Source: Nitrososphaeria archaeon (GTDB lineage: Archaea; Thermoproteota; Nitrososphaeria; Nitrososphaerales; Nitrosopumilaceae). Taken from it: 33,240 nt of DNA. The DNA is taken from positions 1 to 33,240 of the forward strand of contig RHCX01000008.1 in assembly GCA_010028495.1 (NCBI GenBank). The letters run 5' to 3'. This document shows positions 244 to 18,598 of this stretch, piece by piece; position 1 is the stretch's first letter; the number at the start of each line of letters is the position of its first letter. Position numbers and translations under genes: made by a program. The notes under the pieces were generated by a model. That model worked only from the letters and a program-made list of their open reading frames with translations, did no database searches and had not been told where the DNA came from.

Positions 244-900
244 CTAGTGCTGTAGAGTTCCAGTCAGGTCCACTTTGTACGGCATGCTTTTGTTCATAAG
301 ATAAAAGTCCTGATCCTGTAGAACCGCTTTTTGCTTGTTGTTTTTATCGTCCAGAATTTTTTCATCTAGGGTTATGGTTATTGTGAATTTTTCCGTCTTG
401 TCTGCTGCAAAGTCTACGGTCAAGGTTTTGTCATCTAGTTTTGCACCAATTCCTGAAACGGGTGCGCTAGAGCCATCGATTAACAGTCTTGATTCTACTA
501 TACTGAACTCCTTTAGGTTTGTGCCCTTGATTGGAGTCATCTTTAGACTCAGGCTCGCCTTTTTTGCCATGTTTGAGAGCCCCGGGCGTGCATCGCCGCT
601 CAAATTAAGCACAAACTGCTTGCTTTCCAGATCATCAAGATGAGATTTTTGCGGAAGCGTCTTTTGAGGTATGGGTTTTGTGTGCTCTGCCTCTGGCATG
701 GTTTTTGCTGTTTCATGTTTTGGTTCCGGATCATGAATTACGGTTTGATTTGGCGTTTCGGTGTAATCGATATTTGCAGAATACTGGCTTGCAGTTGAGG
801 GGGAAAACTTGTCGTCAAGATCAAAAAGCAAAAATGCGGCAACTACAACAAATGAGATGCTACATATTGCGATCAAATGGATGTTAAATGAGCCTTGCAA
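244..900 (-). CDS. Hypothetical membrane-anchored protein (one N-terminal TM helix, extracytoplasmic domain)
   Basis: 218 aa ORF with N-terminal hydrophobic stretch LIAICSISFVVVAAFLLF followed by a Pro/Thr/Glu-rich linker; compact spacing to neighbours. Confidence 0.7.
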   Translation of the reverse strand: MQGSFNIHLIAICSISFVVVAAFLLFDLDDKFSPSTASQYSANIDYTETPNQTVIHDPEPKHETAKTMPEAEHTKPIPQKTLPQKSHLDDLESKQFVLNLSGDARPGLSNMAKKASLSLKMTPIKGTNLKEFSIVESRLLIDGSSAPVSGIGAKLDDKTLTVDFAADKTEKFTITITLDEKILDDKNNKQKAVLQDQDFYLMNKSMPYKVDLTGTLQH

Positions 901-969
901 TCAAGCACAATTTTTGAAATTTAGCTTAAAAGCCAGACGTAGAAATCATCAGTGCACTAGCCTTTAAAT

Positions 970-2864
970 TTGAAATTACCATTCCAGCACCTATTGCAAG
1001 TCCAGACAAAATACGAGTTATCATCAGAGTTCGAGCCAACCGGAGATCAGCCACAGGCAATTGACAAGATGGTAGCGGGTGTTCAAAAAAACAAGGTCCA
1101 GACTTTGCTTGGAGTTACAGGGTCTGGCAAGACATTTGCAGTTGCAAATGTCATAGCTAGAACTGGCAAGAACACGCTGGTGATATCTCACAACAAAACC
1201 CTGGCGGCTCAATTGTATTCAGAGTTGAAACAGTTTTTCCCAAAAAATAATGTCGGCTATTTTGTATCATATTATGACTATTACCAGCCGGAAAGCTATA
1301 TCGTGCAGACGGACACCTATATCGAGAAGGACACTGAAATCAATGAGAAAATTGAAAAGCTTCGACTAGAGGCAACTGCGATGCTTCTGTCTGGTGAGCC
1401 AACAATTATTGTAGCCACTGTATCGTGCATCTATTCATTGGGCAACCCAAAGGACTGGGAGGAAATGTCGACCAGTCTTGAGACGGGTTCGAATATCAGC
1501 CGTAGTGATCTGATAAAACGCCTCATAAACGCAAGATACGAGCGTAATGATACTGCGCTTGCGGCTGGAAACTTTCGTGTCAAAGGCGACACAATAGATG
1601 TGATTCCTGCGTACTCTCAAGACATAATCAGAATATCGATGTTTGGTGATGAGATTGAAAAGATTGCCATTTTAGACAATGTTTCGTTAAAGGAAAAGCG
1701 CAGGGCAAACTCTATCAAGATATTTCCTGCAAAACACTATCTAGTTGCAAACGATGTTCGGATAAAGGCAGTAAAATCAATTCGAGACGAGTTAAAGACA
1801 AGACTGCCCCAGCTAAAAGAACTCGAAAGGCAGAGACTTGAGATGCGGGCATTTTGATGGAAGAAAGCCAGGTGAGCAGGCGTTTTGTCTTTTGGATTTT
1901 TTTGGTGACGACTATCTTTTGGTAATTGATGAATCACATGTCACCATTCCGCAGCTCCACGGAATGTATGGTGGAGATTATACCAGAAAAAAATCCCTAA
2001 TCGAATATGGATTTAGATTGCCAAGCGCATTTGATAATCGCCCTTTAAAATTTGAGGAATTTGAAAAATACATCAAAAATGCTGTATTTGTTTCTGCCAC
2101 ACCATCAGAATATGAGAAAAAACTCTCTTATCAAATAGTAGAACAACTAGTTAGACCCACAGGCCTTGTAGACCCGCAGGTAGAAATTCACCCTACAAAA
2201 AACCAGATGGATGATCTAATATCAGAGATAAAAAAACGCACTGACAAAAACCAGCGAGTTCTGGTTACCACATTAACAAAAAGAATGGCAGAAGACCTAG
2301 CAGAGTATCTGGCAAAAAAAGAGATTCGCGTCAGATACCTCCATTCAGAAATAGAAGGATTACAAAGAACGGAGCTGATTCGACAGCTCAGGCTTGGAGA
2401 CTTTGATGTTCTGGTTGGAATCAACTTGCTCCGAGAGGGCTTGGACATTCCCGAAGTAGCTTGATGCAGACAGGGAGGGATTTTTGCGAAATTATACTAG
2501 TTTAATTCAGACTTTTGGCAGAGCGGCAAGAAATGTGGATGGTTCTGTGATAATGTATGCTGACAACATCACAAAATCAATGAAGCAGGCAATTGAAGAA
2601 ACAGACAGAAGAAGAACAAAGCAGTTAGAGTACAATAAAAATCATGGAATCACTCCCAGGACAATCATAAAATCAATTCCAGAGCAGGTTGCAACACTTG
2701 ATGATCTAAAAAACAAAACCCAGCATGACTTGAGCCGGGAAATAATAGAAATAGAAATGCAGATGAAAAAATACGCCGAAGAGCTAGACTTTGAGAATGC
2801 GATATCTTGCAGAGACAGACTCAGACGAATTCAAATAGAATTGGAAAAAAAGAACTCGAAATAA
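970..2864 (+). pseudogene. uvrB: UvrB excinuclease subunit split over three frames by two apparent internal deletions
   Basis: Three consecutive ORFs (970-1857, 1838-2464, 2484-2864) read as one UvrB: GVTGSGKT Walker [95 protein letters not shown]-terminal UVR motif. Frame changes at ~1852-1856 and ~2459-2463. Confidence 0.9.
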
Positions 2865-12842: not shown

Positions 12843-12862
12843 TATTTCCAGTCATGGACATA
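12843..12862. promoter_or_regulatory. Dyad motif copy A: TATTTCCA-GTCA-TGGACATA
   Basis: Inverted half-sites separated by 4 nt, upstream of 12204-12833. Confidence 0.55.
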
Positions 12863-12882
12863 ACAGTTTAATATTATTTTCA

Positions 12883-12902
12883 CATTTCCAAATATGGAAA
12901 TG
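12883..12902. promoter_or_regulatory. Dyad motif copy B: CATTTCCA-AATA-TGGAAATG (perfect 8-bp arms)
   Basis: Perfect inverted repeat between divergent regulator and receiver genes. Confidence 0.7.
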
Positions 12903-12957
12903 AGTCCTCCATTAGCGGATAGTAATAAGATGGCCAATTCTTACAAGGCGTGCCTTA

Positions 12958-13368
12958 ATGTGGGTGCCTGAAAGTGTTATGCTCTCAAGTGTCGAGACTT
13001 TGGAATCAAAGATGGTCACATCAATAGTCATAGACGACGATACAGACATTGTCGAAGTATTTTGCGAGTATCTAGAGATAAAAAACATCCAAGTTGTCGG
13101 TAGGGGACATAACGGTCAAGAGGCAGTTGAGCTGTATCAAAAACACACTCCAGATGTTGTTTTTTTGGATGTTATGATGCCCGGTTTTGATGGGATCTAC
13201 GCCTTGGAAAACATCAGAAAGATAAATCCTGATGCCAAAGTCATTGTAATCACTGCGGATTTGAGAGAGGAAACCGCCTTGAGACTAAACGAGCTAAAAC
13301 CAAATAGAATTTTTGTCAAGCCATGTGATTTGGAAAAGATTAGCCAGGCAGTATCAAGTTTTAGCTGA
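12958..13368 (+). CDS. CheY-like response regulator receiver-domain protein
   Basis: SIVIDDDTDIVEVF, DVVFLDVMMPGFDG, VIVITAD, FVKP; true start may be ATG at 13012 (MVTSIVIDDD). Confidence 0.93.
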   Translation: MWVPESVMLSSVETLESKMVTSIVIDDDTDIVEVFCEYLEIKNIQVVGRGHNGQEAVELYQKHTPDVVFLDVMMPGFDGIYALENIRKINPDAKVIVITADLREETALRLNELKPNRIFVKPCDLEKISQAVSSFS

Positions 13369-13522
13369 TTATTTGTTGAATTTTCTCAAGCGCCTTTTCC
13401 ATTCTTTTTACTTCCGACTGGACGGTCTTGTCATCGGTCTGATGCTTGATTATCTCTAGTGATGTATTGATTACAAAGAGTGGGTCACGTATCTCAGTCA
13501 GTGGGTTATTCACCATTTCCAC
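13361..13522 (-). CDS. Unlisted small ORF: 51-53 aa stand-alone HisKA/DHp-like domain lacking the phosphoacceptor His
   Basis: GTG(13522)GAA-ATG(13516)...; MVNNPLTEIRDPLFVINTSLEIIKHQTDDKTVQSEVKRMEKALEKIQQIIS*; TATA-like TTTTATAC about 26 nt upstream of GTG; aligns by eye to HDLQNPLTIIRNTMEILK of the kinase at 17750. Confidence 0.6.
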   Translation of the reverse strand: MEMVNNPLTEIRDPLFVINTSLEIIKHQTDDKTVQSEVKRMEKALEKIQQIIS

Positions 13523-13556
13523 TTAGTATGATATTCGTACTCAGTATAAAAGATAA

Positions 13557-13576
13557 TCCTTCCAAACTTGGAAATA
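13557..13576. promoter_or_regulatory. Dyad motif copy C: TCCTTCCA-AACT-TGGAAATA
   Basis: Inner arms TTCCA/TGGAA with the same N4 spacing; just upstream of the TATA-like box of the 13361-13522 ORF. Confidence 0.5.
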
Positions 13577-14551: not shown

Positions 14552-14571
14552 CATTACCACAGTTGGAAATG
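14552..14571. promoter_or_regulatory. Dyad motif copy D: CATTACCA-CAGT-TGGAAATG
   Basis: 7 of 8 arm pairs, same N4 spacing, between divergent genes 13583-14539 and 14626-15453. Confidence 0.55.
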
Positions 14572-17749: not shown

Positions 17750-18598
17750 ATGCATTCCAAGGACATCGATAGGATACTAAAGATTGCTCAGGAGGACGCC
17801 GAGCGAATTCTAAGACATGCAAAAGAAGATGCCGAAAGACTGCTTAAACATGCACAAGAGGATGCAGAGCGTGTCCTAAGACATGCAAAAGAAGATGCCG
17901 AAAGACTAGAGCCAAAAGAAGTCCCCGCTCAGACACCGAATGTGGTCAAGCGAGACAAAATGTACACCATAGGCGAAATGTCATCAAGGCTGGCCCATGA
18001 TCTGCAAAACCCATTAACAATAATTAGAAACACGATGGAAATTCTCAAGCTCAAAAATCAGGATGTCGATAAAAAAACCAAGGAAAACTATGACAGAATA
18101 GAGCGAGCTGCCTCAAAAATGTCGCAGCAAATCCGAGACGTTCTCAATTTTGTCAGGACCAGCGAGCCAATAATGGAAAAGACATCTATTTTGGAAATTC
18201 TAAAAAACACAATTTCCGGCCTGGACATTCCATCTGATGCCAAAATAATTCTTCCAGAGCAAGACACCGAAGTATATGGGGATGTAAAACAGCTCGAAGT
18301 TGTATTTTCCAATTTGATACTCAATGCAATTCAAGCTAGTGAAAATGGTGGCAAAGTCATGATACAAACAACAGAAACAGACGGCAACACCATAATCGAT
18401 GTCGTCGATAACGGCAAAGGAATAGAAAAGCAAAACCTGCCAAAAATATTTGAGCCGTTATTTACCACAAAGCAGCAAGGAACCGGACTAGGTCTGCCAA
18501 GCTGCAAATCCATACTAGAAAGCCATGGCGGTACAATTGAATGTGCAAGCATTCCAAGCAAAGGAACGGTCTTTACAATACGCCTCCCACGATACTAA
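17750..18598 (+). CDS. Soluble sensor histidine kinase with N-terminal 11-residue repeats
   Basis: HisKA RLAHDLQNPLTIIRNTMEIL; HATPase N box NLILNAIQAS, DVVDNGKGI, TKQQGTGLGLPSCKSI. Confidence 0.95.
   Translation: MHSKDIDRILKIAQEDAERILRHAKEDAERLLKHAQEDAERVLRHAKEDAERLEPKEVPAQTPNVVKRDKMYTIGEMSSRLAHDLQNPLTIIRNTMEILKLKNQDVDKKTKENYDRIERAASKMSQQIRDVLNFVRTSEPIMEKTSILEILKNTISGLDIPSDAKIILPEQDTEVYGDVKQLEVVFSNLILNAIQASENGGKVMIQTTETDGNTIIDVVDNGKGIEKQNLPKIFEPLFTTKQQGTGLGLPSCKSILESHGGTIECASIPSKGTVFTIRLPRY
17774..17905 (+). repeat. Four tandem 33-bp/11-aa units (ILKIAQEDAER-ILRHAKEDAER-LLKHAQEDAER-VLRHAKEDAER)
   Basis: 32-nt identical segment ctaagacatgcaaaagaagatgccgaaagact at 17810-17841 and 17876-17907. 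Confidence 0.95.

Follow-up and report, generated by a model that had tools for sequence, protein, structure and literature searches.

A stand-alone HisKA/DHp-like microprotein without its phospho-His, encoded beside a single-domain receiver in Nitrosotenuis

The window (the whole stretch of DNA that was analysed, 33,240 nucleotides) is a complete contig (C171) of a Ca. Nitrosotenuis relative and encodes, next to a single-domain receiver, a microprotein of 53 residues that resembles the HisKA/DHp domain of histidine kinases and has lost its catalytic residues. We consider it probable that this catalytically dead, stand-alone DHp docks on the adjoining receiver. Docking is favoured because the two genes co-occur perfectly in 17 genomes, are linked in three orientations and share an apparent operator. 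Two copies of the microprotein would pair into a four-helix bundle in which the kinase surface for holding a response regulator is retained and re-specialized, and the dimer would dock on the receiver encoded next door. Lacking the phospho-His and the Asn/Thr at the fourth position after it (H+4), the microprotein would neither donate nor remove phosphate; it could sequester the receiver, protect one of its phosphorylation states or act as its effector, with the ratio of receiver to microprotein perhaps set by a single switch through the shared operator.

The minus-strand ORF, with the translation (V/M)EMVNNPLTEIRDPLFVINTSLEIIKHQTDDKTVQSEVKRMEKALEKIQQIIS, is as the sequence-only reading had described it, and the tail-to-tail overlap with the receiver ORF is exactly the 8 nt claimed (13361–13368), with the 3' ends converging; an inner ATG at 13516 is a second possible start. 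That reading had also suggested looking for small ORFs next to CheY-like genes in related genomes, and a search of 60 relatives duly gave orthologues in ten of the 16 other Nitrosotenuis genomes (E values of 7.5e-10 to 9e-16), every one a small open frame and all within the genus. Residues R12, P14, L15, F16, V17, I18, I24, I25, K26, D31, A44, L45 and I51 are invariant in the 11 Nitrosotenuis microproteins. The median dN/dS is ∼0.1 (12 unsaturated orthologue pairs) and the codon differences fall on positions 1, 2 and 3 in proportions of 28, 15 and 57%. The conservation of the orthologues and the dN/dS rule out a chance ORF, and these data mark the ORF as a genuine conserved gene under purifying selection. 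A phage origin was rejected, as phage records gave zero matches to the microprotein. The features discussed here are collected in Table 1.

Table 1. Positions of the features described; coordinates are those of the window unless a locus or contig is named.
Feature	Position	Strand	Details
His-less stand-alone HisKA/DHp-like microprotein, 53 aa	13361–13522	−	GTG start at 13522
Single-domain CheY-like receiver	12958–13368	+	Partner gene; homology conserved from ATG 13012
Putative microprotein promoter	13545–13574	−	Operator TTTCCAAGTTTGG (13562–13574) and TATA box TTTTATA (13545–13551)
Putative receiver operon promoter	12845–12873	+	Same operator TTTCCAGTCATGG and TTTAATA
Second operator copy	12885–12897	+	Lies 40 bp beyond the first copy, close to the inferred start of transcription
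Regulator-like protein, ∼200 aa	12204–12833	−	Divergent neighbour; no Pfam match
HEAT_2 gene	L040:7251–7769, L043:3300–3797, L044:8119–8622, L042:9066–9725		Equivalent to ∼12900–13011 of the window
Second stand-alone His-less DHp-like protein, same genome	G000:C68:16451–16639 (L197:4314–4649)		Overlaps the end of a TrmB-type gene
Conserved 91–93 aa protein with operator–TATA element	L259:1198–1479 (G000:C112), L255, L257, L258		

The similarity to HisKA had been noticed by eye, and profile comparison confirms it. Pfam HisKA is the top match for the window microprotein and for several of its diverged relatives, each time below threshold (18.7 bits against a cut-off of 26.9 for the window microprotein), and genes of this kind thus easily escape notice. 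The best four NCBIfam matches are kinases, over their HisKA region. Aligning the microproteins with the HisKA domains of 15 kinases using hhalign gave 97.7%, an E value of 2.3e-12 and a score of 61, compared with scores of no more than 21 for 60 column shuffles and 11 for a reversed profile; these controls rule out generic coiled-coil similarity at the sequence level. When small members are set aside, most matches of the microprotein profile in 250 genomes of the family fall in open frames as long as a kinase; those whose motif was read have the 'AHD[LI]RNPLSVI' of kinases. The profile evidence indicates that the microprotein descends from the HisKA/DHp hairpin of the histidine kinases of the same archaea. 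It has in common with the HisKA/DHp domain (PF00512) the motif R-x-P-L-x-V-I...E-I-I-K and the two-helix hairpin, but the phospho-His and the catalytic Asp at H+1 are missing, H+4 is Asp in place of Asn/Thr, its helices are shorter and it has neither an ATPase nor a sensor domain. The protein ends at 53 residues with no HATPase domain 3' of the HisKA-like part, so it is stand-alone as claimed: a kinase domain cut down to a 50-residue module.

The AlphaFold2 monomer is a two-helix hairpin (helices 7–28 and 32–52; pLDDT of 86.9), a fold that is too simple for a decisive structure search. Foldseek gave a best E value of 0.8 with this model. The top match in VIA was the GacS DHp from the RetS–GacS complex (Z of 7.0, r.m.s.d. 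of 1.8), with designed bundles scoring alike; several kinase DHp domains are among the best rows. A sequence search of the PDB with the microprotein found no kinase. Derivation from kinase DHp sequence is also what a decaying, functionless kinase fragment would display; purifying selection, 11 orthologues with a fixed promoter and the repeated linkage described below in practice refute this, and we give it almost no weight.

The residues of phosphotransfer have been replaced while much of the surrounding motif has been kept. The phospho-His is present in 15 of 15 kinases, and the microproteins have Thr (ten) or Gln (one) in its place. Asp at H+1 is found in all 15 kinases and is variable in the microproteins; Asn at H+4, likewise found in all 15, is Asp (ten) or Glu (one). 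At H+7, which contributes to partner specificity in kinase–regulator pairs, the kinases have Ser, Thr, Ala or Asn and the 11 microproteins have an invariant Phe. The R, P, L, V and I at H+3, H+5, H+6, H+8 and H+9 are retained. The Thr at the phospho-His position to which the sequence-only reading had drawn attention thus holds for ten of the 11 orthologues, but it is not an essential feature: T, Q, E, D or N occurs there in the wider microprotein set, in which what stays constant is that the His is lost and that H+4 is in most cases acidic. Because the His and the H+4 Asn are gone, neither phosphotransfer nor phosphatase activity is likely, which leaves binding. A receiver phosphatase acting in trans, as the isolated EnvZ DHp does, would draw on an activity that HisKA domains do carry, and Galperin et al. 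proposed a phosphatase role for archaeal HisKA-only proteins (PMC5847659). We regard it as very unlikely for the microprotein, in which the required Asn/Thr at H+4 is Asp (Glu in one); the same N-to-D exchange at H+4 of the HisKA kinase CrdS abolished its kinase and phosphatase activities (PMC3510030).

The receiver has the conserved active-site residues D-D, D, T and K. In 11 of 11 Nitrosotenuis genomes the microprotein gene is convergent with this same receiver, even where the outer flanks differ. Among the 17 Nitrosotenuis genomes compared, a receiver orthologue (at least 64% identity) is present in exactly the 11 that bear the microprotein, and the six that do not bear it have no receiver above 56% identity (Fisher p of 8e-5, phylogeny ignored); three of these six appear to be without related receivers and kinases altogether. 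In one microprotein-bearing genome (G008; L037:8363–8656) a stop breaks the receiver frame and the adjoining microprotein is intact, which is either an assembly error or real decay. Four genomes of a Nitrosopumilus-like genus (g12) have a diverged microprotein, with Glu at the His position and the Asp-Pro kept, whose gene diverges from that of a same-type receiver. A still more diverged microprotein is found in nine Nitrosarchaeum genomes, where its gene lies upstream of a receiver, co-directional with it, and diverges from the gene of a regulator that belongs to the family of the regulator-like neighbour in the window. Three relative orientations in three genera argue for functional coupling rather than the passive retention of one arrangement. 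It is not the case that every receiver has such a partner, as most paralogous receivers in the genomes examined have no microprotein nearby, and no small-ORF member of the family was found outside Nitrosopumilaceae in 400 genomes of the class. In four Nitrosotenuis genomes a HEAT-repeat gene (Pfam HEAT_2) stands between the regulator and the receiver; it is missing from the window, and some other Nitrosotenuis genomes have it in decayed form.

The dyad TTTCCAAGTTTGGAA precedes the microprotein gene, and the TTTTATA that follows it ends 23 nt before the GTG, a distance compatible with a start that is leaderless or has a short leader. Both elements, as well as the leaderless reading, had been put forward from the window; the TATA spacing fits that reading, and the elements stand up in the comparison: in 11 of 11 genomes the promoter consists of TTNCCA-N4-TGG followed ∼10 nt on by TTTTATA, with the same spacing, and the operator and TATA columns hold 1.5–1.7 bits compared with 0.25–0.5 in the flanks. 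The window has seven copies of the operator, against 0.5 expected (none of 100 shuffles matched this). The receiver operon has the element as well, together with a second operator copy, and the 40 bp spacing of the two is kept in eight of the eight other genomes in which both copies were found. The full operator–TATA element occurs two to three times per genome in six genomes (the reversed-pattern control gave none), before the microprotein gene, before the receiver operon and, in four of the six, before the gene for a protein of 91–93 residues. A similar element precedes the Nitrosarchaeum microprotein genes. From the symmetry of the dyad and its conservation we infer that it functions as an operator, through which the receiver and the microprotein appear to be co-regulated. 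It is possible that the 91–93-residue protein regulates this small operator regulon; its identification as a ribbon-helix-helix repressor, suspected by eye, was rejected, with no Pfam support and an all-helical model of low confidence (pLDDT of 64). A further TTTCCA-N4-TGG copy (14557–14569, minus strand) lies at the start of an EamA-type transporter gene whose other end adjoins the promoter of the microprotein; this copy has no TATA at the usual spacing.

The sequence-only reading had left two roles side by side, a receiver-docking decoy and a dominant-negative or heterodimerizing partner for histidine kinases, and the genomics favours docking. As a partner of kinases, the pseudo-DHp would block trans-autophosphorylation as RetS does to GacS. 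The dimerization-type residues are kept, the similarity is to kinases of the same genome, the top VIA match comes from just such a complex and pseudokinase heterodimers are documented: in RetS–GacS and ChrS–HrrS (PDB 7n0e; PMC9491836) a kinase changes its output on pairing with a kinase core that does not signal. Those proteins are full-length kinases. The microprotein genes of three genera adjoin receivers and not kinases; G001 and G007, both of which lack the microprotein, encode an orthologue of the window kinase 17750–18598, and this orthologue was not found in two microprotein-bearing genomes, both incomplete. Since the distribution of the gene follows that of the receiver rather than that of the window's own kinase, we consider a dominant-negative role to be less favoured and unlikely.

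Several known systems bear on docking by the microprotein. Spo0B and ChpT are DHp-type bundles that act on receivers without kinase activity, but their action depends on an active His that is absent from the microprotein. In DivL of Caulobacter the His is replaced, the essential functions need no phosphorylated DHp and the protein co-evolves with the single-domain receiver DivK, which it docks on a kinase-type interface (PMC4211667). The replaced His and the single-domain receiver as partner are both shared by the microprotein, whose partnership is known from genomics only; DivL differs in that it is large, has a PAS-DHp-CA architecture and exerts control over the kinase CckA, whereas the microprotein is a DHp alone, without PAS and CA. 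The DivL precedent shows that a pseudo-DHp can be functional without phosphorylation. Archaeal proteins with HisKA and no HATPase are already known (PMC5847659); they have this in common with the microproteins but keep the His, carry PAS/GAF sensors and occur mainly in Archaeoglobi and Methanomicrobia, whereas the microproteins are bare, with 50–70 residues and neither His nor sensor domains, and occur in Nitrosopumilaceae. Bare His-less DHp proteins appear to be new, as we found no earlier report of them in the open-access literature. The thaumarchaeal output domains NitrOD1/2/5 and TackOD1 also stand alone and, like the microprotein, are small, restricted to a lineage and linked as partners to REC-only regulators; identity with these was rejected, the microprotein having no match to PF11537, PF18549, PF18550 or PF18551 at E values up to 1, and NitrOD3/4 have no Pfam model (PMC5847659). 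Some three in four thaumarchaeal response regulators consist of a receiver domain alone with no visible output, and for most of them a function could not be inferred, and REC-only genes beside ArsR-type genes have been described (Galperin et al., 2018; PMC5847659). The microprotein–receiver pair is a candidate for the means by which ammonia-oxidizing archaea, a globally important group, read out or restrain REC-only receivers.

The family has a second branch. Its paralogue is present in 12 Nitrosotenuis genomes, this one included, and in two of the genus g42, and it follows a TrmB-type regulator gene wherever the neighbours were read. These TrmB-linked members have no receiver alongside, and g42 has a further family member without an adjoining receiver; for this reason, and with the receiver of G008 broken, receiver docking is probably not the sole role of the wider family. 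A transcription adaptor that joins receivers to TrmB-type proteins, TFB or the regulator-like neighbour would suit the Nitrosotenuis paralogues, which overlap or directly follow the TrmB-type gene, and the regulator that adjoins the pairs in two genera. This is linkage only, however, and the window microprotein is separately promoted and convergent with its receiver, which makes an adaptor quite unlikely. We put forward more tentatively, as a possibility, that in Nitrosopumilaceae the kinase DHp has been turned into a free-standing, non-enzymatic family of receiver-binding microproteins, the missing output partners of REC-only response regulators, with one paralogous branch wired to a TrmB-type transcription regulator. 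The direct similarity of the Nitrosarchaeum class to HisKA is weak (hhalign 37%, E value of 3.5e-4), but a profile built from the small TrmB-linked proteins matches most of its members (E values of 1e-7 to 1e-4). In two Nitrosarchaeum loci (L240 and L241) the microprotein profile match spans one TAA, which probably lies just 5' of the start codon. In a Nitrosopumilus-like genome (G182; L254) a 60-residue protein (1528–1710, plus strand), encoded divergently from a receiver-like gene (896–1276, minus strand), weakly matches the Nitrosarchaeum class and is possibly part of another diverged microprotein–receiver pair.
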